This document shows positions 11,965 through 23,844 of a stretch of DNA of 38,104 nt, piece by piece. The stretch is taken from positions 1-38,104 of the IMG/VR virus record IMGVR_UViG_3300027973_000104; one strand, written 5' to 3'. Position 1 is the first letter of the stretch, and the number at the start of each line of letters is the position of its first letter. Both the position numbers and the translations under genes were made by a program. The notes under the pieces are model-generated. The model ran no database searches, was not told the origin of the DNA, and worked only from the letters and a program-made list of their open reading frames with translations. This stretch comes from a virus.

Positions 11965-11982
11965 TTGCGAAAGGATGAACTC

Positions 11983-12290: not shown

Positions 12291-12294
12291 GCAG

Positions 12295-12323: not shown

Positions 12324-12329
12324 AGCCCT

Positions 12330-13070
12330 ATGGACAATGCAGCCCGCACCACAGCTTTGAAGACCGCCAAGGCCTTGATCAAGACTCACGGGCTGATGGG
12401 CCACATGAACAAGTACAACCAAGACCAGCTGGCTCGCGAGGTTTATGAGGCCGACGCTGGTTTTCGTTGCGACTTCCATCTGGATCCAAAGGCGTCCGCC
12501 TGGGCTGATCAGAACCCCAGCTGTTCGATCATACTCAGCTACACGGTGGATCCCAAAGGTACCCGACTAGCTGACGACAGGAGTACGGTGCTTGACCATC
12601 ACCTGAGCGTAAGGATCTCTGCCAACGGGAACGACATGACCATGGAGACCTTTCGGAAACGGGAGGCCTTGATGTCTATGACGAACATGTTATGCGAGAT
12701 GTTGATCGCCAGCCTACCACGGAAAGTGACGTCCATGATGGAGACCGCCGCTGAGACCGCCGACAGGGTGCAACGAGCGATGGAACAGACTGTGGGTCAT
12801 CAGATCTTCCTTGCGCTTGGAACTGCGGCATTCAAGGGGTTACGTAAGAACGGAACAGCCAGAAGTTTCCGTCTTCCGACGACGGCCACCTCAACCGATG
12901 GCAAGTACCCCGACGCTGGGACTTACCGATACCGGCAAGTGAGGTCCACAGACAGCCTAGGTCGCCCGCGGGAGGTAGCCCATTATTCAATCAGGGTTTA
13001 CGGATCTGACGGAACTGTCCCACCATCTTTGTCAATTCGACGTGTCGACGCAGTGCAAAGTCAACTTTAG
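12330..13070 (+). CDS. Hypothetical protein, 246 aa
   Basis: No known domain recognised. The N-terminal half looks structured (helix KTAKALIKTHGLM; later strands SIILSYTVDP, HHLSVRIS). The middle is Met/Ala-rich helix (EMLIASLPRKVTSMMETAAETADRVQRAM). The C-terminus is Arg/Tyr-rich beta. The final codons overlap the -35 box of the next promoter (...AVQSQL). The start is fixed by the 6-nt rule. Confidence 0.7.
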   Translation: MDNAARTTALKTAKALIKTHGLMGHMNKYNQDQLAREVYEADAGFRCDFHLDPKASAWADQNPSCSIILSYTVDPKGTRLADDRSTVLDHHLSVRISANGNDMTMETFRKREALMSMTNMLCEMLIASLPRKVTSMMETAAETADRVQRAMEQTVGHQIFLALGTAAFKGLRKNGTARSFRLPTTATSTDGKYPDAGTYRYRQVRSTDSLGRPREVAHYSIRVYGSDGTVPPSLSIRRVDAVQSQL

Positions 13071-13082
13071 ACGTGGTAATAT
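13054..13082 (+). promoter_or_regulatory. Leaderless-type promoter inside previous gene end
   Basis: TGCAAA 13054-13059, 17 bp, TAATAT 13077-13082, AAATCT, ATG 13089. The -35 box is coding for the preceding gene. Confidence 0.8.
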
Positions 13083-13088
13083 AAATCT

Positions 13089-13697
13089 ATGATCGACACC
13101 ATCCTGCCGCCCCCGCCTGAGGAACCTGAGTTCGAGTCGATCTCTTCGATCCTCGCGAATGAGGCAAAAGAGAAGGCCCGGCTCGCTCAGAAGCCTATCA
13201 TCGATCTCCTTGAAGACGCGATCGAACTGGACGAGGATGGGGTGCCTGTGTTCACGATCCCTCCTGGTGAGCGGGTCATCATCGAGCGGGTCGCGACCGT
13301 CCTGCCGGGAAAGCAGTGGCTCGACACGAAGGTGTACACGGTTGAGACCATCGACGGTGTCACTGGTAACCTCATGTTGTGGGATGACGACGGCAAGTGC
13401 CATGCCATGTCGAACTACCTCACCGCTCCTAAGAAAGGCTACAAGTTCAAGGTTCCGCCGGCCAAGGGAAGTCTGCAAATCCAGGGACGTAAGCGAGGCC
13501 GGCCGCGTAAGGTGGTACCCCTTGGTCAGGAGAAGCCGGAGGTTCCCGTCCAACTGGATGAGAACGGGCAGCCGATCAAGAAGAAGAGGGGTCGCCCGGC
13601 TGGGACCAAGAATCGGCCAAGGGAGGTTGTGGCTGCGGAACGCAAGGCCAAGGCTCAGATGAAGTCGAAGAAGAAGGCAGGACGTAAAAAGGCCTGA
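13089..13697 (+). CDS. AT-hook-like DNA-binding protein
   Basis: 202 residues. The acidic, Pro-rich N-terminus (LPPPPEEPEFESISSIL) leads to a beta-rich middle (PGERVIIERVATVLPG). The C-terminal 75 residues are strongly basic with two AT-hook-like cores, RKRGRPRK and KKRGRPAGTK, and a Lys tail. AT-hooks bind the minor groove of AT-rich DNA; a nucleoid- or replication-associated role is inference. A tRNA-Arg follows 7 bases after the stop, so both probably share one transcript. Confidence 0.75.
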   Translation: MIDTILPPPPEEPEFESISSILANEAKEKARLAQKPIIDLLEDAIELDEDGVPVFTIPPGERVIIERVATVLPGKQWLDTKVYTVETIDGVTGNLMLWDDDGKCHAMSNYLTAPKKGYKFKVPPAKGSLQIQGRKRGRPRKVVPLGQEKPEVPVQLDENGQPIKKKRGRPAGTKNRPREVVAAERKAKAQMKSKKKAGRKKA

Positions 13698-13704
13698 CGG
13701 CCAT

Positions 13705-13778
13705 GCCGCTGTAGCTCAGACGGATAGAGCAGATCATTCCTAACGATCAGGCCGCAGGTTCGACTCCTGCCAGCGGTG
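13705..13778 (+). tRNA. tRNA-Arg(CCU)
   Basis: Acceptor GCCGCTG/CAGCGGT, anticodon loop TTCCTAA (CCU) in stem GATCA/CGATC with one mismatch, T-arm GCAGG-TTCGACT-CCTGC. Its last bases (GGTGCA) form part of the next promoter's -35 box TGCAAA. Confidence 0.88.
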
Positions 13779-13805
13779 CAAAGTTAACCTCCAACAAGGT
13801 AAGGT
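13777..13805 (+). promoter_or_regulatory. Leaderless-type promoter of Sir2 gene
   Basis: TGCAAA 13777-13782 (overlapping the tRNA 3' end), 17 bp, TAAGGT 13800-13805, AGAACC, ATG 13812. Confidence 0.85.
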
Positions 13806-13811
13806 AGAACC

Positions 13812-14654
13812 ATGGACACGCACGAGACTCTTCAACGGGCGGCTCAGCTGCTAAAGGCAGCCGATGCTATCATCATCACGGCAGGGGCAGGAATGGGGGT
13901 CGACAGCGGTCTACCCGATTTCCGTGGGGACGAGGGATTCTGGAATGCCTATCCTGCGTACCGGCACTTGGGTCTGGCTTTCTCGGACATGGCTAACCCT
14001 CGTTGGTTTGAGGACAATCCGTCGTTGGCCTGGGGGTTCTATGGCCATCGGCTCAACCTGTACCGGTCTACGACTCCCCATGCAGGGTTCGATGTTCTCC
14101 GCAGGTTTGCAAACAAGATGAAGCATGCCGCCTTCGTGTTCACCAGTAACGTCGATGGTGCCTTCCAGAAAGCAGGTTTCGATCCTCAACGGATCGTGGA
14201 GTGCCATGGGTCCATCCACCATGTTCAGTGCACCGCTGGTTGTGGCGTGGGAATCCTGGATGCAGATGACGTCCAGGTCAAGGTGGATCCTAAAACGTTC
14301 GAGGCTCAGGGGCCTCTTCCTAAGTGTCCTAGGTGCGGAGAGCTCTTGCGGCCCAACATCCTGATGTTCGGTGATCCAATGTGGGAGTACGCCCGAGCAG
14401 ATTCTCAGGAACAGAGGATGGTAGAGTGGACTCAAGACTTGGTCGAACGGCGAGCTGCCCTCGTCATCCTTGAGGTTGGAGCCGGGACGCATATCCCCAG
14501 CGTGCGGGCCAGGAGTTCTTCTTTGTCGAATCGTCTCAATGCTCCTCTTGTCCGCATCAACACCCGAGATCCTGAAGGTCCGCGTGGGACCCTTTCCTTG
14601 CCCATGAAAGCGAAGGAGGCTCTCATCGAACTAGAAATTCTTGTAGGAACTTGA
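13812..14654 (+). CDS. Sir2-family NAD-dependent protein deacylase
   Basis: 280 residues with the full set of sirtuin motifs: GAGMGVDSGLPDFRG (25-39), TSNVDG (111-116), catalytic His in CHGS (131-134), four zinc cysteines C140, C144, C172 and C175 (CxxxC...CxxC), and NILMFGD (182-188). Sirtuins use NAD+ to remove acyl groups from lysines; some act in NAD-based antiphage defence. In a phage context it could alter host protein acylation or NAD metabolism, which is inference. The leaderless-type promoter overlaps tRNA-Arg. Confidence 0.93.
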   Translation: MDTHETLQRAAQLLKAADAIIITAGAGMGVDSGLPDFRGDEGFWNAYPAYRHLGLAFSDMANPRWFEDNPSLAWGFYGHRLNLYRSTTPHAGFDVLRRFANKMKHAAFVFTSNVDGAFQKAGFDPQRIVECHGSIHHVQCTAGCGVGILDADDVQVKVDPKTFEAQGPLPKCPRCGELLRPNILMFGDPMWEYARADSQEQRMVEWTQDLVERRAALVILEVGAGTHIPSVRARSSSLSNRLNAPLVRINTRDPEGPRGTLSLPMKAKEALIELEILVGT

Positions 14655-14657
14655 CAG

Positions 14658-14686
14658 TGCAAAGTTCTTACCTCACGTGGTATACT
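14658..14686 (+). promoter_or_regulatory. Promoter with leader (ATC in place of ATG)
   Basis: TGCAAA 14658-14663, 17 bp, TATACT 14681-14686. Six nt later the DNA reads ATC instead of ATG; translation instead begins at 14736 after a leader of about 45 bases with an A/G-rich stretch. Confidence 0.75.
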
Positions 14687-14735
14687 AATATCATCAAGGC
14701 TTAGGCCGTAACCCCCTGAAACGAAAGAAAAAGAC

Positions 14736-14930
14736 ATGAGCAGCAAGGAATACAGCAGCATCGGGACCGACATCTGCGACGACTGTGGTCACCACGGTCC
14801 TGGAACTCGCTACTCCGTCAAGCAAGGTACGATCTACTTTGTCTGCATGTCGTGTGGATCGAAGCAGTTTGAGGCGAAGGCCCGCCGCGACATTGACGCC
14901 TGGCTCGCCGGAGGTGACTTCGGGGGATGA
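14736..14930 (+). CDS. Small zinc-ribbon protein (paralogue of 22978)
   Basis: 64 residues. Two CxxC knuckles, CDDC (about 14-17) and CMSC (about 37-40), form a zinc ribbon; the ending RRDIDAWLAGGDF matches the gene at 22978-23163 (RQDIDSWLAGGSF). Function unknown. Its stop overlaps the next start as ATGA. Confidence 0.72.
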   Translation: MSSKEYSSIGTDICDDCGHHGPGTRYSVKQGTIYFVCMSCGSKQFEAKARRDIDAWLAGGDFGG

Positions 14931-15181
14931 GCTGGAACTATCGGATCGTCAGAAAGGTCCACCAGGTTGACGGACGAGATGAATTCCAGTATGGAATTCA
15001 CGAGGTCTACTACGATGATGATCACGTACCGACTTCGTGTACCGTCGACCCTGTCTCCCCTCATGGCGACACCGAGGACGAGCTGGCCCAAGACATGCGG
15101 TATTTTGCCTCGGCCTTGGAGGAGCCGGTTCTCGATTACGATTCGATCGGTGTAAAGCCGAATTCGAACGTGATAGAGTAG
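14927..15181 (+). CDS. YxIVR...EVYYD family protein (paralogue of 16153)
   Basis: 84 residues, MSWNYRIVRKVHQVDG...YGIHEVYYDDD...LAQDMRYFASALEEPVLDY. The pattern [Y]-R-[IV]-V-R, then [YI]-x-[EV]-V-Y-Y-D and a final helix ending in P-[VI]-L is an uncharacterised small family found in phages and bacteria; the gene at 16153 is a second copy. Start coupled to the upstream stop (ATGA). The final codons overlap the next promoter. Confidence 0.75.
   Translation: MSWNYRIVRKVHQVDGRDEFQYGIHEVYYDDDHVPTSCTVDPVSPHGDTEDELAQDMRYFASALEEPVLDYDSIGVKPNSNVIE
15151..15179 (+). promoter_or_regulatory. Leaderless-type promoter inside previous gene end
   Basis: TGTAAA 15151-15156, 17 bp, TAGAGT 15174-15179, AGAACT, ATG 15186. 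Confidence 0.75.
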
Positions 15182-15185
15182 AACT

Positions 15186-15320
15186 ATGAAGAACAAGAGG
15201 AAGCAAAATCCGATCGCGGTAGCCATGACCCTTCGCCATGCCACTACGACAACACGCATGAAGGACCGACGTCAACGCCGCCATCGGGACGCCCGCAGCA
15301 AGAAGGAGTGGTACAAGTAG
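15186..15320 (+). CDS. 44-residue very basic protein
   Basis: MKNKRKQNPIAVAMTLRHAT then an Arg-rich run ending SKKEWYK. About a third of the residues are Arg or Lys, so it should bind nucleic acid or ribosomes. The promoter and 6-nt spacing to the ATG support expression. A similar K-N-P-[IV]-A-V-A-M opening with a basic tail occurs in short phage proteins as I recall it. Function unknown. Confidence 0.6.
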   Translation: MKNKRKQNPIAVAMTLRHATTTTRMKDRRQRRHRDARSKKEWYK

Positions 15321-15330
15321 ACCCAATGGG

Positions 15331-15359
15331 TTTACCTAAACGCAGAGGGGAGATACGAT
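15331..15359 (+). promoter_or_regulatory. Variant promoter
   Basis: TTTACC 15331-15336, 17 bp, TACGAT 15354-15359, 8 nt to ATG 15368. The -35 box departs from TGCAAA. Confidence 0.5.
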
Positions 15360-15367
15360 AGCGTGCA

Positions 15368-15646
15368 ATGCCACGAAAGAAAAAAGAAACAAATCCCGTT
15401 GATCTCCCCACGGGGCAAGTGATAGAGATTCAATTACCGGAACCAAAGATGGTTCCTGCAAATCAAGTCATGCCTGGACAAGTCGTGAAGGTCCCAGGTG
15501 GAGAGTTTCACAAGGTCGTATCCGTGGATCCCATCCTTGATCCGTCTCACCCACAACTCTGGGCCAATGAGGTCATCGCTAAGGTGGAAGACGGATCAGG
15601 AACGAAGTTGGTGATCCTGAAGGGACGGGTCGAGCTAGTGGCCTGA
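15368..15646 (+). CDS. Hypothetical protein, SH3-like pattern
   Basis: 92 residues. Basic start MPRKKKETNP, then Q-V-I-E-I-Q-L, PGQVVKVPGGEFHKVVSVDP and a final strand LVILKGRVELVA. The spacing of hydrophobic strands and P-G-x-V-V-K suggests a small beta barrel. Unknown function. Followed directly by hairpin element copy 1. Confidence 0.65.
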   Translation: MPRKKKETNPVDLPTGQVIEIQLPEPKMVPANQVMPGQVVKVPGGEFHKVVSVDPILDPSHPQLWANEVIAKVEDGSGTKLVILKGRVELVA

Positions 15647-15657
15647 TCCTGACATCC

Positions 15658-15736
15658 GGATGACCCAGGAGAGGTTTCGGGTAAATTGTGGAAGGCTACC
15701 AAAGGGTTGCTTTTCTTGACCTCTCCTGGGTCATCC
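15658..15736 (+). ncRNA. Long-hairpin element, copy 1
   Basis: Perfect 17-bp stem: 15658-15674 (GGATGACCCAGGAGAGG) pairs with 15720-15736, enclosing 45 nt. Two more copies lie at 19211-19291 and 22714-22794. Each follows a stop codon and precedes a TGCAAA promoter. No U tract follows. Candidate RNA processing site, terminator or small RNA. Confidence 0.7.
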
Positions 15737-15754
15737 TCAGATGAGGTCTCACAG

Positions 15755-15783
15755 TGCAAAAGCAAAAGAAAAAAAGATACAAC
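15755..15783 (+). promoter_or_regulatory. Leaderless-type promoter
   Basis: TGCAAA 15755-15760, 17-bp A-rich spacer, TACAAC 15778-15783, AAGTCC, ATG 15790. Confidence 0.75.
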
Positions 15784-15789
15784 AAGTCC

Positions 15790-16068
15790 ATGATCGAAGT
15801 TCTCGAATCGATTCCTTTCGACCTGAAGGTAGATCGCCCCACAGATGATGTGGCGGCTGGGCCTCTTTTCGAAATCCTATTCGAGGGTGCCTGGGTCTTT
15901 GCGGAGGAGGACGTGTTCGGGTGCTGGACCGGGTTGCGCCGGAGAAATGGCGATGAGGTCCACGGTTCGATCTACCCTCTCGGAGGTAAGACCTTTTATA
16001 CAGGAGCTCGTGTCTGCGGATGCGTTGCTTGTCAGGAACACGTAGAGCCCAAGTTCAGGAAGAACTGA
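15790..16068 (+). CDS. Hypothetical protein with C-terminal Cys cluster
   Basis: 92 residues, MIEVLESIPFDLKVDRP... A Trp-rich middle (FEGAWVFAEEDVFGCWTGLRRR) and a final C-G-C-V-A-C may bind a metal. Unknown function. ATG 15790 is preferred over a frame opening at 15754, because the extra residues would be translated promoter sequence. Confidence 0.65.
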   Translation: MIEVLESIPFDLKVDRPTDDVAAGPLFEILFEGAWVFAEEDVFGCWTGLRRRNGDEVHGSIYPLGGKTFYTGARVCGCVACQEHVEPKFRKN

Positions 16069-16069
16069 G

Positions 16070-16156
16070 ATGGACGAGATGACGTTCGGTGATAAGGTGT
16101 TGGCGGTCTTGACTATTGGCGTTGTGTTGGTGGTATTCGCGATGGAGTTGAAGTGA
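16070..16156 (+). CDS. 28-residue membrane peptide
   Basis: MDEMTFGDK, then a hydrophobic run VLAVLTIGVVLVVFAME and LK. A single transmembrane helix. It starts one base after the previous stop and its stop overlaps the next start (GTGA), so it is embedded in an operon. Unknown function. Confidence 0.5.
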   Translation: MDEMTFGDKVLAVLTIGVVLVVFAMELK

Positions 16157-16413
16157 AGTCCGACCAACGCGTCGTGAGGCAGATCCTTCCTTCGGGTGCC
16201 ACGTACGATGGTATCTACGAGGTTTACTACGATGAGGAAGGCAAGGCCATATCCAGGGCGTCTCAGCTGTCTACTCTAATCGCCCCCACGGCGAAGGCCC
16301 TTGCTATCGCGCTGAGTGACATGAGACGGGCCTTTGATCGGCCTATCTTACTCGAAGTGAATGATAAGTACGAAAGATTCGTGGAAATATCCACGGCAGG
16401 AGACATGACATGA
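16153..16413 (+). CDS. YxIVR...EVYYD family protein (paralogue of 14927)
   Basis: 86 residues from GTG 16153, which overlaps the upstream stop. QRVVRQILPSG...YDGIYEVYYDEEG...LAIALSDMRRAFDRPILL aligns by eye with the gene at 14927 across its whole length. Two diverged copies within 1.3 kb suggest an old duplication. Function unknown. Its stop overlaps the next start as ATGA. Confidence 0.75.
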   Translation: MKSDQRVVRQILPSGATYDGIYEVYYDEEGKAISRASQLSTLIAPTAKALAIALSDMRRAFDRPILLEVNDKYERFVEISTAGDMT

Positions 16414-16631
16414 CGACATTCTACAATCAAGAAAAGGCTGCACTGCTCCAGGCTTTCGTTGCGATCCTCAATGATGCTGAGGCCATCCTAGATAAGATCG
16501 AGGCTCTCGACATCACGCATAAGGGTGAACCTGATCATGACCACCTGGCGCTGAACGACCTGATCGGGGACGCCATTGAACTTGCGGAGGGCCTACGCGA
16601 CGCCGCCGACAGCGTCAAAGAAAGCATCTAG
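16410..16631 (+). CDS. Small helical acidic protein
   Basis: 73 residues, MTTFYNQEKAALLQAFVAIL... almost all helix with acidic patches (DHDHLALNDLIGDAIELAEGL). Probably a helical hairpin or coiled-coil dimer. Unknown function. Coupled to the upstream gene through ATGA; the Smr gene follows 20 bases later. Confidence 0.65.
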   Translation: MTTFYNQEKAALLQAFVAILNDAEAILDKIEALDITHKGEPDHDHLALNDLIGDAIELAEGLRDAADSVKESI

Positions 16632-16651
16632 TCCGGAGGTCAGAGGATACC

Positions 16652-16858
16652 CTGGACCTGCATGGGGTCTCCCATGAGGATGCTCCTGAGATGGTGCATC
16701 GTTTCATAAATAACCATTGGGTGGAAGGGTGGACTCTTCACATCATCACGGGACAATCAGAGAAGATGAAGGCAATCGTCCGGTCCGTCTTGGTCATGTA
16801 TCAGTTTGATTGGGCAGAGGACGTGTGGAACTCAGGAAGCATCAAGATTTTTACTTGA
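16652..16858 (+). CDS. Smr-domain protein with apparent CTG start
   Basis: 68 residues reading LDLHGVSHEDAPEMVHRFIN...WTLHIITGQSEKMKAIVRSVL. The LDLHG opening and the IITG-S core are hallmarks of the Smr (small MutS-related) domain; Smr domains bind or cut branched nucleic acids or RNA. The frame is open from 16580 but has no ATG, GTG or TTG. The best start is CTG 16652, 4-5 bases behind AGAGGA, which places Met exactly at the domain start. Alternatives are readthrough or a frameshift from the previous gene. Confidence 0.65.
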   Translation: MDLHGVSHEDAPEMVHRFINNHWVEGWTLHIITGQSEKMKAIVRSVLVMYQFDWAEDVWNSGSIKIFT

Positions 16859-16863
16859 GGCGG

Positions 16864-16892
16864 TGCAAAGTCGTCTAGACGCGTGGTATAGT
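16864..16892 (+). promoter_or_regulatory. Leaderless-type promoter
   Basis: TGCAAA 16864-16869, 17 bp, TATAGT 16887-16892, AGAACC, ATG 16899. Confidence 0.85.
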
Positions 16893-16898
16893 AGAACC

Positions 16899-17111
16899 AT
16901 GAGGATCTTACCCGTAGACAATTTCGATCTTTCGCACTATTCTCCGGCTCATTTGCGAGCGTTAGGGGAAGCGTTGGTCGATCGACTGAAAAAAGGAAAG
17001 ATCGAACTGGTCGGGCTTGACTTGGCAGCTTACAACATCGCGGCGAGCGGGATGGCAACAACACGTGACATCATTCGGCTGAAGGAGGCCTGCAGACTTG
17101 CAGGCGTATAG
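16899..17111 (+). CDS. Small helical protein
   Basis: 70 residues, MRILPVDNFDLSHYSPAHLR... with a helix-rich body (ALGEALVDRLKKGKIELVGLDL, DIIRLKEACRLAGV). Unknown function; heads the unit 16899-17847. A start further upstream is excluded by the promoter. Confidence 0.65.
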   Translation: MRILPVDNFDLSHYSPAHLRALGEALVDRLKKGKIELVGLDLAAYNIAASGMATTRDIIRLKEACRLAGV

Positions 17112-17113
17112 TC

Positions 17114-17371
17114 ATGGCATGGATCGACGACCACAGGATCGTGTTCATCTTCAAGACGGCCATGGAGTCTCTGAACCGTGGTGATGAGGCATCAGCCCAG
17201 TTCTACCTGAGACAACTACCACCTGAACAAATGGACTACGTCTGGGGTCTTGTGGCGGCTGCGACAGGACGACCTATCGAATCCCTCCGCAAACCGTGGT
17301 GGAAACGTCATTTCAAGCTTCTCTTCTGTGTGGCCCTGCTGGCCGCCACCATTCTCTACTTCATCCTGTGA
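17114..17371 (+). CDS. Tail-anchored membrane protein
   Basis: 85 residues. Soluble helical part (FKTAMESLNRGDEASAQFYLRQL), then a basic linker KPWWKRHFK and one C-terminal transmembrane helix LLFCVALLAATILYFIL ending the protein, so it is probably tail-anchored with its N-terminus in the cytoplasm. Starts 2 bases after the previous stop. Function unknown. Confidence 0.65.
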   Translation: MAWIDDHRIVFIFKTAMESLNRGDEASAQFYLRQLPPEQMDYVWGLVAAATGRPIESLRKPWWKRHFKLLFCVALLAATILYFIL

Positions 17372-17378
17372 GGACAAC

Positions 17379-17600
17379 ATGACCAACGATGAGTTCAACG
17401 ATCTGATCACACGACTTCGAAACTCCTCTACTCCAACCCGCCTGCGAGAGGAGACCATCATGGTTCTCAAGCAGCAACGTCAGATGTTGGAGGATATCTA
17501 CCTCGGGGCTCGCCACGGCCTGCGAGCTTCTTCTGAGAGACTTGCGGGGATCGCTCTCGGCAAGGCAGGATATGGAGGCATGGGTGATGCCGGTTTTTGA
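17379..17600 (+). CDS. Small helical protein
   Basis: 73 residues, MTNDEFNDLITRLRNSSTP... ending in a Gly-rich GKAGYGGMGDAGF. AGGA precedes the ATG. Largely helical; unknown function. The next gene starts inside its 3' end in another frame. Confidence 0.6.
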   Translation: MTNDEFNDLITRLRNSSTPTRLREETIMVLKQQRQMLEDIYLGARHGLRASSERLAGIALGKAGYGGMGDAGF

Positions 17601-17847
17601 TGACAAGAAAAATGTGTCGGGTGGCGTGAAGAAGAACAAGATATGGGTCATCAGATGCCTGAACGGAGCAGGCGAAGGACCTACCTACGTCTACTGGAAC
17701 CCGAATGAGGGTTGGGTTTACGATACAAACGCAGCGTTGGCGTATGATGGCCCGGAACAGGCCGCCGCGGCAGTGGAACACTATACTTCCTTGGGATTGT
17801 GGTTGAAAGAAAAAGTAGAGCCTGTGCAAATCTTCGTGCGAGCATGA
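17587..17847 (+). CDS. Small hypothetical protein
   Basis: 86 residues, MPVFDDKKNVSGGVKKNKIW... beta-rich with several Trp and Tyr (TYVYWNPNEGWVYD). GGAGG lies 8 bases before ATG 17587; an in-frame ATG at 17572 is the alternative. It overlaps the previous gene. Its last codons carry the -35 box of the promoter for the tRNA-like RNA. Confidence 0.6.
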   Translation: MPVFDDKKNVSGGVKKNKIWVIRCLNGAGEGPTYVYWNPNEGWVYDTNAALAYDGPEQAAAAVEHYTSLGLWLKEKVEPVQIFVRA

Positions 17848-17853
17848 TACTAT
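17825..17853 (+). promoter_or_regulatory. Promoter driving a tRNA-like RNA
   Basis: TGCAAA 17825-17830, 17 bp, TACTAT 17848-17853. The expected start (about 17860) coincides with the first base of the tRNA-like acceptor stem. Confidence 0.7.
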
Positions 17854-17860
17854 CTGTGTT

Positions 17861-17911
17861 GGGTCTGCAGGTTGATGGCAACCATCTTCTGGTTCGAATC
17901 CAGGCAGATCC
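17861..17911 (+). ncRNA. tRNA-like RNA lacking an anticodon arm
   Basis: Acceptor-like stem GGGTCTG (17861-17867) with CAGATCC (17905-17911), a GGTT-GATGGC-AACC arm, then only ATCT before a canonical T-arm TCTGG-TTCGAAT-CCAGG. Total 51 nt, with no room for an anticodon arm. No CCA. Followed by two hairpins. Confidence 0.55.
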
Positions 17912-17915
17912 TCTG

Positions 17916-17944
17916 GGATCACGGGTCGTGGTAACCCGTGATCC
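17916..17944 (+). other. 11-bp hairpin downstream of tRNA-like RNA
   Basis: GGATCACGGGT (17916-17926) pairs perfectly with ACCCGTGATCC (17934-17944), loop CGTGGTA. No U run follows. Possible 3' boundary of the small RNA. Confidence 0.6.
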
Positions 17945-17951
17945 TGACCAA

Positions 17952-17967
17952 GCAATTTTTTAATTGC
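17952..17967 (+). other. Short hairpin GCAATT-TTTT-AATTGC
   Basis: Six-bp AT-rich stem with a T4 loop, 7 bases after the 11-bp hairpin. May contribute to termination. Confidence 0.4.
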
Positions 17968-18077
17968 GGTCATTTAACGGCAAGAAGGATTGCCACGACG
18001 AGAAGCCGCCAGATTACGCAGGTGAACGGAGGACCTTCTGCCTCCATAGTAACTAACCCCGGGTTTCGGAGACGCCA

Positions 18078-18425
18078 GTGTACAACGATCCCATCTATAA
18101 GTTGAAGCTGCAGATCGAATTCCTCAACACAGGCATCGTACCCCTTGCTTGGCGCCTTGCTGAAGGAGCGCCTGCATGGTTCGACATCAACAAGATCTTG
18201 GCTGCCCTTCCACCGGATGAGGCGCTGAAGATGAAGCGCAAGTTCCGTAAGGCTTGGAGGAAGTTGGCGGCACATGACTTGAAGCGAGGCGGTCGAGCGG
18301 CCCGGAAGCGGTTGGCCATCATGGAGGTCGGCAAGGAAATTCCCACCCGCCAGGCGAAGAATGCCCGAAAGGTGGAGGTGCTGACGGCGCATAATCGAAA
18401 AGTCGTCTCAAAAGTAGGACAATGA
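18078..18425 (+). CDS. Basic hypothetical protein
   Basis: 115 residues from GTG 18078 behind CGGAG. Helical N-terminus; the middle and C-terminus are rich in Arg and Lys (KMKRKFRKAWRKLAAHDLKRGGRAARKRL), suggesting nucleic-acid contact. No family recognised. The 150 bases upstream hold two small hairpins (GGCAA/TTGCC and GGAGG/CCTCC) that could regulate translation. Its stop overlaps the next ATG. Confidence 0.6.
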   Translation: MYNDPIYKLKLQIEFLNTGIVPLAWRLAEGAPAWFDINKILAALPPDEALKMKRKFRKAWRKLAAHDLKRGGRAARKRLAIMEVGKEIPTRQAKNARKVEVLTAHNRKVVSKVGQ

Positions 18426-18598
18426 ATATGATGAAGCGTGAGGATTTGTTGGCCGCAGCTGACTTCTTGAAGAAGTATGCCACTGCAGTGGAGACGAAGC
18501 TGTATTGGAACATGACAACGAGTGAGTCACGAGCTGAGATCAAAGAGGCCAAACGTCTCGTAACACTCTTGACTGAGGCCTCTGAAGGTTGCAAATAG
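18422..18598 (+). CDS. 58-residue helical protein
   Basis: MNMMKREDLLAAADFLKKYA then a second helix EIKEAKRLVTLLTEASEGCK; a likely helical hairpin. Coupled to the preceding gene through ATGA. The TAG stop lies inside a TGCAA-N4-TTGCA palindrome (18589-18604). Unknown function. Confidence 0.6.
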   Translation: MNMMKREDLLAAADFLKKYATAVETKLYWNMTTSESRAEIKEAKRLVTLLTEASEGCK

Positions 18599-18604
18599 TT
18601 GCAT
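18589..18604. promoter_or_regulatory. TGCAA-N4-TTGCA site 4 / weak promoter
   Basis: TTGCAA-ATAG-TTGCAT spanning a stop codon. TGCAAA inside it is also 17 bp ahead of TACATG (18613-18618), so it may double as a weak -35 element for the deaminase-fold gene. Confidence 0.45.
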
Positions 18605-18632
18605 TGTGCGGGTACATGAGAACGGGTTTCGA

Positions 18633-19019
18633 ATGAAAAGATCTGACACCGAGATGTTGCTGATGGCGGCCGGAGCAGGCCTACGTAAGTCCGACCTGCG
18701 CGCATTCAGGCTTGGTGCAGTGGGAATCCGGAACGATGGCATCCTCGTCTCTGCTTCCAATGGTCCTGCCCCTTTCCCGCATCCTGATGCGCATGCCGAG
18801 GCACGGTTGACGATGAAGCTTACGCCTGGGTCTGAGATCTGGGTGGCGCGTGTTCGGAAGGACGGGACCCTTGGCATCGCTAGGCCTTGTCCCCGATGCA
18901 TGGTGAGGATTCGGGCGGCGGGTGTGTCCCGGGTGGCCTACACGATTTCAGATATAGAACATGGAGTGATCCATTTGCACTCCGGTGGCGAAGTTATGAA
19001 GCCAATGAGAGGGCGGTGA
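18633..19019 (+). CDS. Cytidine-deaminase-fold protein
   Basis: 128 residues from ATG 18633 (GTG 18606 would add nine). Zinc signature of the CDA superfamily: HAE (54-56, in PDAHAEARLT) and PCPRC (85-89, in RPCPRCMVRIRAAGV), 30 residues apart as expected, with the IARPCxxC-x-RI-xxxGV-x-RV-x-Y strand-helix-strand continuation. Such enzymes deaminate cytidine, dCMP or bases in nucleic acid. The substrate is not evident; nucleotide salvage or base modification are both possible. Confidence 0.75.
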   Translation: MKRSDTEMLLMAAGAGLRKSDLRAFRLGAVGIRNDGILVSASNGPAPFPHPDAHAEARLTMKLTPGSEIWVARVRKDGTLGIARPCPRCMVRIRAAGVSRVAYTISDIEHGVIHLHSGGEVMKPMRGR

Positions 19020-19022
19020 AGC

Positions 19023-19211
19023 ATGCGTGTCAAGAGAGCGAAAGAAGGAAAACGGGTGGAGCATGAGATGTCGCACCGTGAGAAGCTGCACTACGACCCG
19101 CGCCTGGATGTGTACTGGATCGTGACCCTGATGCCAGATGGGACGACACACATCGGATCCCCGTTCGCCATCACTGCCTTGGATGCCCTATACACCAGGT
19201 CTTGGGCATGA
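19023..19211 (+). CDS. Small basic hypothetical protein
   Basis: 62 residues, MRVKRAKEGKRVEHEMSHRE... basic N-terminus, then beta strands YWIVTLMPDGTTHIGSPF. Unknown. It starts 3 bases after the deaminase-fold gene. The stop codon touches the first base of hairpin element copy 2. Confidence 0.6.
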   Translation: MRVKRAKEGKRVEHEMSHREKLHYDPRLDVYWIVTLMPDGTTHIGSPFAITALDALYTRSWA

Positions 19212-19291
19212 GGATGACCCAGGGGAGGCTTTCATGAGGTCGGATGGGGTAACCTAGGTCCGGCATACCTCAGCCTCCCCTGGGTCATCCT
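19211..19291 (+). ncRNA. Long-hairpin element, copy 2
   Basis: Perfect 20-bp stem (19211-19230 with 19272-19291). Relative to copies 1 and 3, an A-T pair is a G-C pair here (CAGGGGAGG / CCTCCCCTG), a compensatory change. The loop contains TGAGGT/ACCTCA and CGGA/TCCG inner pairs around GGGGTAACCTAGG. Confidence 0.75.
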
Positions 19292-19320
19292 AGGGGTCAT
19301 GAGAAAAGCGCGGAGGTCAG

Positions 19321-19349
19321 TGCAAAGTCAACCTCAAGTAAGGTAAGGT
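19321..19349 (+). promoter_or_regulatory. Leaderless-type promoter (TAAGGT class)
   Basis: TGCAAA 19321-19326, 17 bp, TAAGGT 19344-19349, GGAACT, ATG 19356. Confidence 0.85.
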
Positions 19350-19355
19350 GGAACT

Positions 19356-19592
19356 ATGAAGCGAAACTCCTCTCCCAAGGCAAAGGTTCTTGAGCTGGCT
19401 TCTTTCTGCGTCGCGGAGGGTGTGCCCCTTGAAGTTCGCAGCACCCGCGTCAAAGGCCGGTTCGGTGGTGACTTCCTTGTTGAGGTCCTCGCAGGGGAGC
19501 CTTACCACATCCTGGTCCAGACGCGGCACCGCAACTGGCGCACGGCCTACAAGCTCCTCGGCATCGAATTGGCGCGTCGCGGCGTGGTCTGA
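19356..19592 (+). CDS. Small basic alpha/beta protein
   Basis: 78 residues, MKRNSSPKAKVLELASFCVA... then G-G-D-F-L-V-E-V-L and LVQTRHRNWRTAYKLLGIELARRG. Helix-strand-strand-helix pattern of a small nucleic-acid-binding fold, but no family recognised. Independent leaderless unit. Confidence 0.65.
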   Translation: MKRNSSPKAKVLELASFCVAEGVPLEVRSTRVKGRFGGDFLVEVLAGEPYHILVQTRHRNWRTAYKLLGIELARRGVV

Positions 19593-19593
19593 G

Positions 19594-19622
19594 TGCAAAG
19601 TCAACCTCAAATAAGGTAAGGT
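19594..19622 (+). promoter_or_regulatory. Leaderless-type promoter ahead of an 8-codon ORF
   Basis: TGCAAA 19594-19599, 17 bp, TAAGGT 19617-19622, AGAATC, ATG 19629. Confidence 0.8.
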
Positions 19623-19628
19623 AGAATC

Positions 19629-19655
19629 ATGGAAACGATCAAGATCGGCATCTGA
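19629..19655 (+). CDS. 8-codon ORF (METIKIGI)
   Basis: A consensus promoter and spacing lead to an ORF of only eight codons, followed by a hairpin CTCACG...CGTGAG at about 19659-19681. It may be a leader peptide, a gene truncated by mutation, or the 5' end of a small RNA. Confidence 0.35.
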   Translation: METIKIGI

Positions 19656-19689
19656 ATCTCACGAGCAACGTGACCGTGAGAGCTGAGTG

Positions 19690-19718
19690 GTATAAACTCA
19701 CCTCCAACAAGATAAGGT
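19690..19718 (+). promoter_or_regulatory. Degenerate leaderless-type promoter
   Basis: GTATAA 19690-19695 in place of TGCAAA, 17 bp, TAAGGT 19713-19718, 7 nt to ATG 19726. Confidence 0.5.
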
Positions 19719-19725
19719 AAAAATC

Positions 19726-19971
19726 ATGACGCGACGAGTTACAAACAAGCTTCTAGAGATGATGGAAGAGGGCGCCTTGGACGCCGAGGTGCTTGTACGG
19801 GCATGCTTGGTCTTCATGTCGGAGGCCGATGTGGCCGAGATGGCGGTCGGCGAGGGGTTCCTCGAGGAAGAGGATGCCGAGATCGACGAGGACGAAGAGG
19901 AGGACGAGGAGTTGGGTGAAGATGAAGATGAGGACGAACCTCTGTCCACCTTCGGGGTGGATGAAGACTGA
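19726..19971 (+). CDS. Acidic-tail protein
   Basis: 81 residues. Helical N-terminal half (LLEMMEEGALDAEVLVRACLVFMSEADVAEMAV), then about 30 residues that are almost all Glu and Asp. Such tails mimic DNA or bind basic proteins, and DNA-mimic anti-restriction or anti-nucleoid roles are known in phages; that is inference here. Function unknown. Confidence 0.65.
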   Translation: MTRRVTNKLLEMMEEGALDAEVLVRACLVFMSEADVAEMAVGEGFLEEEDAEIDEDEEEDEELGEDEDEDEPLSTFGVDED

Positions 19972-19988
19972 AAAAGTTCTCCCCTCAG

Positions 19989-20017
19989 TGCAAAGTTCCA
20001 CATCGAAAGGATACACT
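19989..20017 (+). promoter_or_regulatory. Leaderless-type promoter
   Basis: TGCAAA 19989-19994, 17 bp, TACACT 20012-20017, AGGACC, ATG 20024. Confidence 0.85.
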
Positions 20018-20023
20018 AGGACC

Positions 20024-20404
20024 ATGAGCAAGTCATTCACCGCCACCACCAAGATCAAGTTCGACGCACGTCTCGAGGCCGTGGAGTTCGGCACCGCCGC
20101 CGTCACTGTCAAGGTGCTTCGTCCGACGGTCAACCTGCCGGTCCGGATGGCGGCATTCATCCACGCCGACCAGGACTTCTACCACGCCAAGGAGCCGATC
20201 CTCGTGACCGAGATCGACCCCAATAAGGTCCCGACCTTCGGTCAGTTCGCCACCGTGGCCCGTGAGGCCGCCAAGGCTGCCGGTCTGAAGGGTGGCCACC
20301 TCGTTCAGAGCAAGATCTACATCACGCCGGTCTGGTGGAAGAAGCCCCACCACCAGGGCATGAGCTTCCACTACGTCACCAGCAAGGGGTTGATCAAGGT
20401 CTGA
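20024..20404 (+). CDS. Hypothetical alpha/beta protein, 126 aa
   Basis: MSKSFTATTKIKFDARLEAV... with strong beta strands (AAVTVKVLRPTVNL), a helix FATVAREAAKAAGL and a final Trp/His-rich part (YITPVWWKKPHHQG). Well-behaved composition and its own promoter support a real, expressed gene. No family recognised. Confidence 0.7.
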   Translation: MSKSFTATTKIKFDARLEAVEFGTAAVTVKVLRPTVNLPVRMAAFIHADQDFYHAKEPILVTEIDPNKVPTFGQFATVAREAAKAAGLKGGHLVQSKIYITPVWWKKPHHQGMSFHYVTSKGLIKV

Positions 20405-20410
20405 GATCTG

Positions 20411-20439
20411 TGCAAAGTTCCACCTTGAAGTGATAGGGT
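20411..20439 (+). promoter_or_regulatory. Leaderless-type promoter (TAGGGT class)
   Basis: TGCAAA 20411-20416, 17 bp, TAGGGT 20434-20439, AGAACC, ATG 20446. Confidence 0.85.
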
Positions 20440-20445
20440 AGAACC

Positions 20446-20769
20446 ATGAAGAAAGCTCCCCTCCCCGCCGGCCTGAAGACCGAGACCGTCCCGTCGGCCC
20501 TGTTCTCCTACGATGCCCGTGAGGAGCACCCGGACGTGACGGCCATCAACGTGACCCACATCCTCGACGTGGTGATCCCCGGCTACTGGTCGATGAACCT
20601 CCGGGAGCGTCCGGACTACACGACCAGCCGGACCCTCGTGGCGTCCTGGTGCGAGGCCCATGGTGCCCACTACTACGCCAAGGATCGCGAGGACTTCTCC
20701 CTCTACGAGGCCGCCCGGGAGGCTGTCGACAAGGGCCTGACCAGGATGGTCTACGAGGACCTATCGTAA
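20446..20769 (+). CDS. Hypothetical protein, 107 aa
   Basis: [20 protein letters not shown]... with a central [20 protein letters not shown] and a C-terminal helix [22 protein letters not shown]. Mixed alpha/beta, unknown function. Single-gene leaderless unit. Confidence 0.65.
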
Positions 20770-20777
20770 CGACGCAA

Positions 20778-20830
20778 AGTTCCCAAAAGAAACGGTGTAA
20801 AAGTTGTACTTCTTGGTGTATGGTTGATCC
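20778..20830 (+). promoter_or_regulatory. Overlapping tandem promoter elements
   Basis: CGCAAA, 17 bp, TGTAAA, 17 bp, TATGGT, TGATCC, ATA. The middle TGTAAA can be read as the -10 of one unit and the -35 of the next. The triplet at the usual start position is ATA; an in-frame ATG lies 6 bases later at 20837. Confidence 0.45.
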
Positions 20831-20836
20831 ATAGTC

Positions 20837-21361
20837 ATGTTATCATGGATCGCCATACTTTTATCAGCCCTCGCCTTGTTCGAGATCAGGACTCTCAAGC
20901 AGCGCCTCCGAACCATCAGCCGAACACCAGGACCACGGGGTCGCAGAGGGTTACCTGGACCGGCAGGTCCTCGAGGTGAGGACGGGGTTGCCGGACCACC
21001 TGGTCCATCAGGACCGCAGGGGAGTAATGGTATGCCTGGACCCCAAGGTGACAGAGGTCCTGCGGGTGGGCCTGGTATGCTTGGTACCACAGGACCCATG
21101 GGACCTACAGGCCCGCAGGGCGACAAGGGCGATCCCGGAGTTGTTGGCGAGGTAGGACCCCAAGGTCCGACAGGTGCCACAGGACCCCAAGGTGGGCGAG
21201 GTGAGGCTGGTCCAAAAGGTGATATGGGACCACCCGGTCCGCGGGGCGAAGTGGGTCCTAGAGGTCCCCAGGGCTTCAAGGGTGAGTCCAGCGGACCGGC
21301 CGAACGTGAACTCCTTGCCCATTGGGCCCACGAGGCCTTGAAGCCTTCTGGAGAAGAATAG
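20837..21361 (+). CDS. Membrane-anchored collagen-like protein
   Basis: 174 residues. N-terminal hydrophobic helix ([17 protein letters not shown]), a basic stretch, then about 110 residues of near-perfect Gly-X-Y repeats ([13 protein letters not shown]...) with an S-S-G interruption and a short helical tail. Gly-X-Y forms collagen triple helices; phage collagen-like proteins are usually fibre parts, but the membrane anchor here would place the rod outside the cell membrane or attach it to a cell surface. ATG 20837 is used; the in-frame ATA six bases upstream occupies the leaderless position. Confidence 0.85.
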
Positions 21362-21371
21362 CACTGAGCAG

Positions 21372-21400
21372 TGCAAAGTTCAACCTCAAAAGGATATACT
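21372..21400 (+). promoter_or_regulatory. Leaderless-type promoter
   Basis: TGCAAA 21372-21377, 17 bp, TATACT 21395-21400, AGGACC, ATG 21407. Confidence 0.88.
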
Positions 21401-21406
21401 AGGACC

Positions 21407-21727
21407 ATGAACATCGTCGAGTACGTCTCCGGTCTCCGCAAGTACCGCATCACCCTCGTCCCCGGTGCCTACGTCGTCGTCGAGGCCTTCAAGGATGACC
21501 AGTTCGTCTCGATGAAGAGGTTTGAGGTGGGGGACGAGGTGGAGTACGACTCCTTCAACCTGAGCTACACAGGCCTCATCATGGCGATCGGCAAGAAGAC
21601 GGTCACCGTGGAGACCTCTTTCAGGGGAAACAAGCGCCTCAAGGCCGAGGAGTTCGGCTGGCGGAACTGGGACTTCAATGCTGCTGAGACCGCACGACGC
21701 AACGCAGAAACGTCGCAATCTATCTGA
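21407..21727 (+). CDS. Small SH3/KOW-like protein
   Basis: 106 residues, [20 protein letters not shown]... with V-G-D-E-V-E-Y-D...[15 protein letters not shown], the strand-turn-strand pattern of a KOW/SH3-like barrel. Function unknown. A 13-residue upstream extension is open in frame but is translated promoter DNA, so ATG 21407 is the start. Confidence 0.68.
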
Positions 21728-21733
21728 GGGCTG

Positions 21734-21762
21734 TGCAAAGTTCGGACCCGAAAGGGTATACT
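21734..21762 (+). promoter_or_regulatory. Leaderless-type promoter
   Basis: TGCAAA 21734-21739, 17 bp, TATACT 21757-21762, AGAACC, ATG 21769. Confidence 0.88.
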
Positions 21763-21768
21763 AGAACC

Positions 21769-21933
21769 ATGGAAACGGTCTTCGCCAAGGTCCCCCAGCA
21801 CCTCTACCTCTTCCGGTCCGCCTGCGGGACCAAGTTCATCGACCGGGACGGTCGGGGCTGGAAGCTCCACACCCCGACCCTCGGGAAGTGGACCTACTTC
21901 CCCACCTTCAAGGCCTGCCTCACGGCGGCCTGA
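21769..21933 (+). CDS. 54-residue hypothetical protein
   Basis: METVFAKVPQHLYLFRSACG... beta-rich with Trp, Tyr and Phe; reads like a small barrel or hairpin protein. Its promoter decides the start. Unknown function. Confidence 0.62.
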   Translation: METVFAKVPQHLYLFRSACGTKFIDRDGRGWKLHTPTLGKWTYFPTFKACLTAA

Positions 21934-21949
21934 AAAGTCGCGGAGGCGG

Positions 21950-21978
21950 TGCAAAGTCAACCCTAAAAGAGGTAAGGT
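21950..21978 (+). promoter_or_regulatory. Leaderless-type promoter (TAAGGT class)
   Basis: TGCAAA 21950-21955, 17 bp, TAAGGT 21973-21978, AGAACC, ATG 21985. Confidence 0.88.
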
Positions 21979-21984
21979 AGAACC

Positions 21985-22710
21985 ATGCCGATCATCAAGA
22001 CGAGCTACGACGCCAACGTCGGCCCCGAGACCCTCTTCCGTGGTCGGGTGCTCAAGATCGAGAAGACCACGGAGACCCGCAACTGGTCGGACACGTTGGA
22101 CTACAGCGACCACCGCTCCACGGAGTGCACCTGGGCCCTCGTCTACCTCGGGACCCACGGCGTGCCGCCCCGCGGTTGGAACGGCCGGGTGATCGCCCAC
22201 ATCAAGGACCCGTTCTGGGAGACGCCCCGGGACCTGACGGTCGACGAGCGGTTCGCCTGGATGGACTGCACCAACCTCTTTGGGGACCGGCACGGTTACC
22301 TGCTCAAGGCCGAGGTCGACACGGTGGGCGACCTTCTCATCGCCGGTGGCACGGAGAACATCTACGACCAGCTCGCCGCCTGGGAGGCCCACCACAAGGC
22401 CGCCCTCGAGGCCCGAGTCGCGGAGCATGCCGCAAAGGAGGCCATCCGCCTCGCCGCCGAGAAGGCCGCGACCGAGAAGAATGCCGCCCGTGCTGCCAAG
22501 GCTGCCGAGAAGGATGCCGTCCTCAAGGCCGCCGCTGAAGGCCACCTCGCCCGGATCCCCACCAAGGGCACTCAGGTCACGGTGGATGGGTTCACAGGGA
22601 AGGTCTTCTGGATCGGGGTCTCCAAGTACCGTGGGTTCTGGTCCGCCCGGGCCGGCATCAAGGACTCCAGGGGCAACGTGCAGTGGGTTCCGGCGGACCG
22701 GTTCTCCTGA
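21985..22710 (+). CDS. Three-part protein with Ala/Lys coiled coil
   Basis: 241 residues. An N-terminal beta-rich domain (ETLFRGRVLKIEKTTETRNW...WALVYLGTHG) is followed by an Ala/Glu/Lys-rich helix of about 55 residues (likely coiled coil) and a C-terminal small barrel (KGTQVTVDGFTGKVFWIGVS...NVQWVPADRFS) of the G-T-x-V-x-V-x-G-x-x-G-x-V type, similar to KOW/SH3 barrels. A scaffold or oligomeric nucleic-acid binder is plausible. Followed directly by hairpin element copy 3. Confidence 0.7.
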   Translation: MPIIKTSYDANVGPETLFRGRVLKIEKTTETRNWSDTLDYSDHRSTECTWALVYLGTHGVPPRGWNGRVIAHIKDPFWETPRDLTVDERFAWMDCTNLFGDRHGYLLKAEVDTVGDLLIAGGTENIYDQLAAWEAHHKAALEARVAEHAAKEAIRLAAEKAATEKNAARAAKAAEKDAVLKAAAEGHLARIPTKGTQVTVDGFTGKVFWIGVSKYRGFWSARAGIKDSRGNVQWVPADRFS

Positions 22711-22713
22711 CCT

Positions 22714-22794
22714 AGGATGACACAGGAGAGGCTTCCATAAATCCGGGAGGGGTAACCAAGGCCCGACTCCCCAAAGCCTCTCCTGGGTCATCCT
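22714..22794 (+). ncRNA. Long-hairpin element, copy 3
   Basis: 21-bp stem with one mismatch (22714-22734 with 22774-22794). The loop carries GGGAG/CTCCC and GGG/CCC inner pairs around TAACCAAGG. See copies at 15658 and 19211. Confidence 0.75.
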
Positions 22795-22822
22795 CGAGAC
22801 CTCGAAAAAGTTCACAGGACAG

Positions 22823-22851
22823 TGCAAAGTTCCACCTTGAAGTGATAAGTT
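22823..22851 (+). promoter_or_regulatory. Leaderless-type promoter
   Basis: TGCAAA 22823-22828, 17 bp, TAAGTT 22846-22851, AGAACC, ATG 22858. Confidence 0.82.
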
Positions 22852-22857
22852 AGAACC

Positions 22858-22947
22858 ATGGACAAGCACACCGCCTCGGACATCCTCGGAGCCCTCATCA
22901 CGGTCGCCTCCACGGCCTTCGCCGGCTACTGGCTCCTCGCCCTCTGA
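22858..22947 (+). CDS. 29-residue membrane peptide
   Basis: MDKHTASDILGALITVASTA then FAGYWLLAL: one transmembrane helix. The consensus promoter and 6-nt spacing make this tiny gene credible. It is followed by a Shine-Dalgarno-led zinc-ribbon gene on the same transcript. Unknown function. Confidence 0.6.
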   Translation: MDKHTASDILGALITVASTAFAGYWLLAL

Positions 22948-22977
22948 CCCTTCACTCCCAACCACAAGGACGACACC

Positions 22978-23163
22978 ATGAACGACTCGATCACCATCAA
23001 GACCTGCAAGTGCGACGAGTGTGACCATACGGCACCTGGTGTGGAGTACACATCCCTCGGGTCCCCGGTTCTCTTCGTCTGCAAGCACTGCGAGCCCAAA
23101 GGGTTCGAGAAGCAGGCCCGACAGGATATCGATTCCTGGTTGGCCGGCGGTTCGTTCCGCTGA
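22978..23163 (+). CDS. Small zinc-ribbon protein (paralogue of 14736)
   Basis: 61 residues with CDEC and CKHC knuckles (KCDECDHTAPGVEYTS...FVCKHCEPKGFEKQARQDIDSWLAGGSF). It shares the D-I-D-x-W-L-A-G-G-x-F ending and overall length with 14736-14930. AAGGA precedes the ATG, so it is translated conventionally as second gene of its unit. Function unknown. Confidence 0.72.
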   Translation: MNDSITIKTCKCDECDHTAPGVEYTSLGSPVLFVCKHCEPKGFEKQARQDIDSWLAGGSFR

Positions 23164-23169
23164 TCCCGG

Positions 23170-23198
23170 TGCAAAGTCAACCCTGAAAGAGTTAAGGT
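23170..23198 (+). promoter_or_regulatory. Leaderless-type promoter (TAAGGT class)
   Basis: TGCAAA 23170-23175, 17 bp, TAAGGT 23193-23198, AGAACC, ATG 23205. Confidence 0.88.
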
Positions 23199-23204
23199 AG
23201 AACC

Positions 23205-23585
23205 ATGGCAACTCGCTCCTACATCGGCAAGCTCCTCAACGACGGCTCCATCACCGGCATCTACTGCCACTTCGACGGTTACCCGGAGGGCGTCGGTGCC
23301 ACCCTCAAGGAGCACTACACGGATCCGGTCAAGGTGGATGCCCTCCTCGCCCTCGGCTCCATCTCGTCCCTCGGGGCGGAGATCGGGGAACAACACGAGT
23401 TCGAGGATCGATCCCGCGACTGCGTCACGGCCTGCCACCGGGACCGTGGCGAACGCCTTGAGGCGCCGACCGTCTACCGGAACATCGACGAACTTCGCCG
23501 GAATGCCTTCAACGACCTCGGGGCTGAGTATGCCTACGTCTTCGTCAACGGGGAGTGGGCCACCACGGAGTTGGGTCCGGCGTGA
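23205..23585 (+). CDS. Conserved phage-type hypothetical protein
   Basis: 126 residues, MATRSYIGKLLNDGSITGIYCHFDGYPEGVG...HYTDPVKVDALLALGSISSLG. The I-Y-C-H-[FW]-D-G-Y-P-E-G-V-G core followed by a K-V-x-x-L-L-x-L-G-x-[IL]-S helix is a widespread uncharacterised family in phages and prophages. Function unknown. The stop overlaps the next gene's GTG start. Confidence 0.8.
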   Translation: MATRSYIGKLLNDGSITGIYCHFDGYPEGVGATLKEHYTDPVKVDALLALGSISSLGAEIGEQHEFEDRSRDCVTACHRDRGERLEAPTVYRNIDELRRNAFNDLGAEYAYVFVNGEWATTELGPA

Positions 23586-23815: not shown

Positions 23816-23844
23816 TGAAAGATACAAGAAATTCCCTCATCTAG

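Follow-up and report, generated by a model that had tools for sequence, protein, structure and literature searches.

The window analysed here, an IMG/VR virus record of 38,104 nt, harbours an RNA element of exactly 51 nt that resembles a tRNA without an anticodon arm. On the evidence of comparison with related phages, this element was confirmed to be a real conserved structured RNA outside Rfam. It forms the first domain of a leader of ~217 nt, and it is tentatively proposed that this leader acts in cis at the 5' end of a phage mRNA, its first domain mimicking the upper half of a tRNA. The sequence comparison revealed the tRNA-like domain, hairpins 2 and 3, the link to a gene for a 115-aa protein and a promoter of a phage family; the function of the leader is what we infer. 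The features are as follows:

17824-17853, + strand: promoter of the phage family GTGCAAA-17-TANNNT, with the -35 at 17824-17830 and the -10, TACTAT, at 17848-17853
17861-18077, + strand: conserved structured leader, ~217 nt, with the tRNA-like domain as its first domain
17861-17911, + strand: tRNA-like domain, exactly 51 nt, conserved in 5 phage contigs
17861-17867/17905-17911, + strand: acceptor stem, 7 bp, GGGTCTG/CAGATCC, with one G.U pair (3-70)
17868-17873, + strand: unpaired D-like strand CAGGUU
17874-17886, + strand: stub GAUGG-CAA-CCAUC, 5 bp, the reading favoured by the relatives
17888-17904, + strand: T-arm TCTGG-TTCGAAT-CCAGG, invariant among relatives (TCTGG-TTCGAAT-CCAG)
17915-17945, + strand: hairpin 2, 11-12 bp, 100% of cells paired, one two-sided change
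17927-17931, + strand: loop of hairpin 2, CGTGG, candidate pseudoknot with CCACG at 17993-17997
17946-17971, + strand: hairpin 3, GACC-aa-GCAATT / AATTGC-GGTC, 100% paired, 2 pairs with two-sided changes
17993-17999, + strand: CCACGAC, 3' side of the candidate pseudoknot, up to 7 bp (GTCGTGG/CCACGAC)
18028-18045, + strand: hairpin GGAGG...CCTCC, stem invariant, loop variable
18046-18072, + strand: invariant motif ATAGTAACTAACCCCGGGTTTCGGAG, 26 nt, ending in the Shine-Dalgarno sequence (CGGAGA)
18078-18425, + strand: gene for a 115-aa basic protein, GTG start, headed by the leader

The 51-nt length, the 7-bp acceptor-like stem and the canonical T-arm, all noted in a first-pass annotation of this DNA, were confirmed from the sequence. 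The element has the 7-bp acceptor and the 5-bp T-stem with TTCRANN loop of a canonical tRNA. An anticodon arm with a 7-nt loop is absent, and neither ARAGORN nor the Rfam model RF00005 calls a tRNA at the element; the 14 ordinary tRNAs that ARAGORN found in the window all lie elsewhere. In Rfam no family, including those of cis-regulatory RNAs and riboswitches, scored above its gathering score at the element or leader, and the best tRNA-type match was tRNA-Sec (14.5 bits, E = 3). The middle arm can be read in two ways. GGUUG-AUGG-CAACC has the lowest energy for the element alone, while GAUGG-CAA-CCAUC, directly before the T-arm, is backed by the relatives. The annotation had described one short arm and a gap of four bases where the anticodon arm should be; the anticodon arm is indeed missing, but the layout is better described as an unpaired D-strand and an anticodon arm cut to a stub. 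As a stub with a loop of 3-4 nt, this arm supports the earlier view that the element cannot decode. Folded alone, the element adopts the described shape at -22.5 kcal/mol; with z = -1.65 and 14 of 200 shuffles folding equally well, the single sequence is not beyond chance.

Seven related phage loci were retrieved with the RecA/KaiC-like protein (9979-10893) as query. Four of these (L003-L006, on IMG/VR phage contigs) have the element in the same position and with the same neighbouring genes; one relative's contig, G003, measures 278 kb. L006 is identical to L005 over the leader, which leaves four distinct sequences including the window, closely related to each other from hairpin 2 onward, where L003 equals L004. 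Conservation of both stems in related genomes had been suggested as a check, and indeed the acceptor and T-arm of the element as well as hairpin 2 were kept. The acceptor reads GGGTCTG/CAGATCC in the window and GGGTCCA/TGGATCC in the other sequences, with two-sided changes at pairs 6-67 and 7-66, while G3.U70 and the T-arm are unchanged in all four distinct sequences. Their stubs (GAUGG-CAA-CCAUC, CGAUG-GUGA-CGUCG, UGGUG-AUAG-CACCA and CGAUG-GUGA-CAUCG) are, read by eye, fully paired at 5 bp in each case; the automatic alignment displaces the window by one base at the stub and scored this helix at 85%. Over the aligned leader of the four distinct sequences 98.9% of the cells are paired, with 6 two-sided changes. 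This pairing was matched by none of 500 shuffles, and sliding the partners by 1-3 columns left at most 45% paired. The identity of the tRNA-like domain between the window and its relatives is only 57-64%, because the D-strand and the stub vary freely. The stub, variable yet always paired, looks like a spacer.

A descriptor scan of ~2.1 Mb of phage DNA with 1,234 T-arm sites recovered this family and one other site, against a chance expectation of 0.69 random matches. The other site, L120 ~3379 (- strand), is a 59-nt element inside the 19-tRNA cluster of another phage; it is within the chance expectation, and its plan comprises a 7-bp acceptor, a 12-nt D-strand with UGGUU, a 5-bp stub and a T-arm, without an anticodon. 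A covariance model scored the five family members at 64-84 bits and the next matches, mostly ordinary tRNA genes with tRNA-Ala among them, at 35 bits or less; the loci behind these weaker matches were fetched by a GGGTC/GATCC pattern, so that the tRNA-Ala enrichment is biased. No second copy of the element was found, also with the covariance model, in the 278-kb record or other fragments of these phages. Pattern scans gave no members beyond the four relatives among the matches listed, and no description of a comparable element was found in the literature.

The first-pass annotation had placed a perfect 11-bp hairpin (17916-17944) behind the element. Both are present; however, they do not constitute a free 51-nt RNA with a hairpin but belong to the 217-nt leader of a predicted mRNA. 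The hairpin itself (z = -3.83) was confirmed and has 12 bp when G17915.U17945 is counted; it begins 3 nt after the acceptor stem. The halves of the candidate pseudoknot in which its loop would take part are complementary and invariant in all relatives, with no covariation, and this pseudoknot is considered possible, not proven. Identity between window and relatives is 79-83% over 17912-17973, 86-87% over 17974-18059 and 100% over 18043-18068. The ATAGTAACTAACCCCGGGTTTCGGAG motif is 100% identical in 5 phages, and when 22 nt of it were searched for in IMG/VR, exact matches came from the four relatives only. Compared with L003 and L004, the upstream gene is ~55% and the 115-aa gene ~61% identical, so the 3' two-thirds of the leader (79-87%) are better conserved than either flanking gene; a cytidine-deaminase gene further downstream is 85-88% identical. 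The whole window leader has z = -3.07. In the minimum-energy fold of the full leader, the tRNA-like domain is sometimes lost to pairings that involve the Shine-Dalgarno region. A conserved switch hiding the Shine-Dalgarno sequence, suggested by the energies in three sequences, was rejected since the pairings differ between phages. A coding upstream ORF or overlapping minus frame was likewise rejected, as 1-nt indels break the frames between phages (L005 shifts).

The leader is continuous with the Shine-Dalgarno sequence and start codon of the conserved 115-aa gene, as in an mRNA leader, and no terminator-like site is listed between the two. The protein is 66-68% identical in the four relatives. 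Leader and gene occur together in all four, and both are missing from three more distant fragments. No family of PHROG, Pfam or NCBIfam includes the protein, the PDB gave no convincing relative, and its AlphaFold model is all-alpha with low confidence (pLDDT 63.5). Searches in IMG/VR returned the same four only, and none was found in 84,980 species genomes or in GenBank phages.

The consensus promoter that had been proposed, TGCAAA (17825-17830) and TACTAT (17848-17853) with a 17-nt spacer, was borne out when its coordinates were re-read in the window sequence. GTGCAAA occurs 33 times in the window where 4.3 are expected, and in 25 of the 33 sites an ATG follows exactly 36 bases on (0.25 expected from shuffles). 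The 278-kb relative shows the same ATG register for 32 GTGCAAA sites, most of them within a GC-rich block at 50-76 kb. It appears that one promoter type serves dozens of leaderless phage genes, concentrated in one GC-rich block. The simplest reading is that this promoter family is leaderless, with +1 at the A of the ATG. By this register the predicted +1 falls exactly at acceptor G1 in L003-L006, and in the window it lies one base upstream of G1 (17860/17861); this supports the transcription start predicted earlier for the 5' end of the acceptor stem. If transcription does start there, a tRNA-like RNA would be made without need for RNase P. The end of the upstream gene falls inside the promoter.

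Further observations were made on this promoter family and its surroundings. Near-identical promoters, GTGCAAA-17-TATACT-6 with an ATG exactly at the expected +1, are found at 11023-25643 in the window and at 50-76 kb in G003. The leaderless promoter that follows tRNA-Arg(cct) (window 13705-13780) shares its -35 with the 3' end of this tRNA (GCGGTGCAAAG), and L004 has at this site (~5574, - strand) a different tRNA body with the same junction. Long near-perfect hairpins at window positions 15653, 19207-19306 and 22710-22809 have a common stem, AGGATGACCCAGG...CCTGGGTCATCCT, with the inner segment GGGGTAACC; two of them sit just ahead of leaderless promoters. G003 is a mosaic in GC content, ~57% at 50-80 kb vs 32-47% elsewhere, and its GC-rich block holds a tRNA cluster, the leaderless promoters and the tRNA-like leader.

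Some genes of the window touch on the host. Beside phage genes, the window encodes a TAT-signal protein (35129-36619, - strand) that shares 67% identity with a protein of a Myxococcales metagenome-assembled genome, and at 37265-38092 (- strand) there is a weak match to DUF1588 (PSCyt3). Such genes of bacterial type in a virus record point towards a myxobacterial host; the 67% identity suggests such a host for these large phages but falls short of proof. No relative of the 115-aa gene was found at a meaningful score in that Myxococcales genome. According to Pfam, the phage also carries a Sir2-family protein (13812-14654), a UvdE UV endonuclease (27258-28193) and a collagen-repeat protein (20837-21361).

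Judged by its base pairs, the acceptor is of alanine type with an incomplete alanine identity. The bacterial alanine identity set consists of A73, G2-C71, G3.U70, G4-C69 and G20 (PMC9976931). The element has G2-C71 and G3.U70, but U4-A69, with U or C at position 73 and without an encoded CCA. Of what an AlaRS substrate needs, G3.U70 is thus present, while A73 and a free CCA end are not. Because of the U or C at 73 and the missing CCA, the element as it stands would not be chargeable; several tRNA genes of these phages also lack an encoded CCA. The window's own tRNA-Ala acceptor (GGGCCTG/CAGGTCC; GGGCCUG/CAGGUCC in the RNA, with G3.U70) is one pair away from that of the element, which differs from the tRNA-Ala of these phages in having no decoding arm, no A73 and no CCA. 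A scan of IMG/VR for GGGTC...GGTTCGAATCC.....GATCC gave 28 stretches, namely the four relatives and 24 others, and ARAGORN placed a tRNA-Ala at that site in 14 of these 24.

The element resembles the tRNA-like domain of tmRNA (ssrA) in shape but is not a tmRNA. Both combine a 7-bp acceptor with G3.U70, a canonical T-arm and a deformed D-arm, and lack an anticodon arm (PMC3985003); the third acceptor pair of tmRNA is a completely conserved G-U and its D-arm is deformed (PMC3985003). In both, a tRNA half is linked to an mRNA as well as to hairpins or pseudoknots. However, the halves of the element are contiguous at the 5' end, whereas those of tmRNA lie at the RNA's two ends, and the acceptor 3' end is internal and followed by U/C-CUG instead of ending in A-CCA. 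Neither Rfam nor ARAGORN matched a tmRNA model at the leader, no tag-peptide reading frame was identified and no small ORF is conserved across the relatives. The operators of the E. coli thrS type are also tRNA-like elements that precede the start codon within the leader of an mRNA, and the present element could similarly recruit a tRNA-binding protein. The thrS operator, however, mimics the anticodon arm, whereas this element mimics the acceptor and T-arm and occupies the extreme 5' end. YrlA-type Y RNAs and the 3' tRNA-like structures of plant viruses are other bacterial or viral RNAs with tRNA-like domains, but they differ from the element in architecture and position; the plant-virus structures are located at 3' ends and are charged. 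The element is a variant within the tRNA-like RNA domains and mRNA leaders, and is itself new.

In the proposed mechanism, transcription would start at acceptor G1, so that the tRNA half would be the first part of the emerging transcript to fold and would not depend on cleavage by RNase P. The half-mimic and hairpin 2, which follows 3 nt later, may then close off the 5' end, and a protein that recognises just the acceptor and T-arm may dock on them. Given G3.U70, AlaRS is a natural candidate; other putative binders are EF-Tu, RNase P and enzymes that modify the T-arm. Binding could set the stability or translation of the downstream cistron. Lacking a free CCA end, the mimic would not be charged as long as it is part of the full-length mRNA. 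Three points favour a leader that acts in cis: the conserved stretch extends as far as the Shine-Dalgarno sequence, the gene accompanies the leader in every case, and no terminator-like site is listed between them. An extension of this proposal is that the mRNA carries from +1 a minimal alanine-type tRNA mimic that is bound by AlaRS or EF-Tu, or released by RNase Z, CCA-tailed and charged, so that the gene senses host charging or ribosome rescue; this is thought improbable.

Several other explanations have to be weighed. The RNA could be a stand-alone noncoding RNA of ~200 nt acting in trans, for example by sequestering a tRNA-binding host protein, with the gene merely sharing the transcript. 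It is better conserved than the gene and compactly structured, and tmRNA, YrlA and similar RNAs also combine a tRNA-like part with other domains. The constancy of the Shine-Dalgarno sequence, the lack of a terminator-like site ahead of the gene and the invariable co-occurrence of gene and leader argue against this, and a trans-acting role is regarded as somewhat unlikely. The acceptor and T-arm together form the minimal substrate of both RNase P and RNase Z, and the element could thus serve as a processing signal, cut by RNase P in read-through transcripts from the upstream gene and/or by RNase Z after position 73, like the tRNA punctuation of polycistronic transcripts. The overlap of the upstream gene with the promoter would fit, and since several phage tRNA genes lack an encoded CCA, trailer removal must occur. 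However, transcripts from the element's own promoter would start at G1 and leave nothing for RNase P to remove, hairpin 2 would hinder RNase Z so close to the acceptor, and 160 nt of further conserved leader are left unexplained; processing is considered unlikely to be its role.

It is quite unlikely that the domain is a 5'-end stabiliser only, in which pairing of the 5' end protects the RNA from pyrophosphate removal and 5'-dependent decay, the T-loop being just a compact structural motif. Bacterial mRNAs are protected by 5'-terminal stems, and the fold is retained while stub and D-strand drift, but a plain hairpin would suffice for this, whereas the UUCGAAU loop, the 7+5 bp geometry and G3.U70 have all been retained. 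A decayed or partly deleted tRNA gene, one of the readings offered in the first-pass annotation, or a chance resemblance is suggested by the abundance of tRNA genes in the window and by the unremarkable folding of the single sequence. However, none of the four relatives has an intact tRNA at the locus and all have the anticodon-less form. Because two-sided changes keep the pairing and the T-arm is 100% conserved, the element is taken to be neither, and this reading is judged very improbable. The earlier suggestion of a decoy for tRNA-cleaving enzymes found no support, as anticodon nucleases require the anticodon loop that is missing here.

Known tRNA mimics in mRNAs are, for the most part, 3'-terminal structures of plant viruses or bacterial operators that imitate the anticodon arm. 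Elements of the present kind are missed by tRNA finders. The mRNA of a DNA phage carrying at its 5' end the upper half of an alanine-type tRNA fold would be a compact natural test of acceptor and T-arm recognition in gene control. If the improbable extension of the proposal, with a mimic bound by AlaRS or EF-Tu or else released and charged, were true, the leader would represent a new class of riboregulators built on mimicry of the acceptor and T-arm and not of the anticodon.
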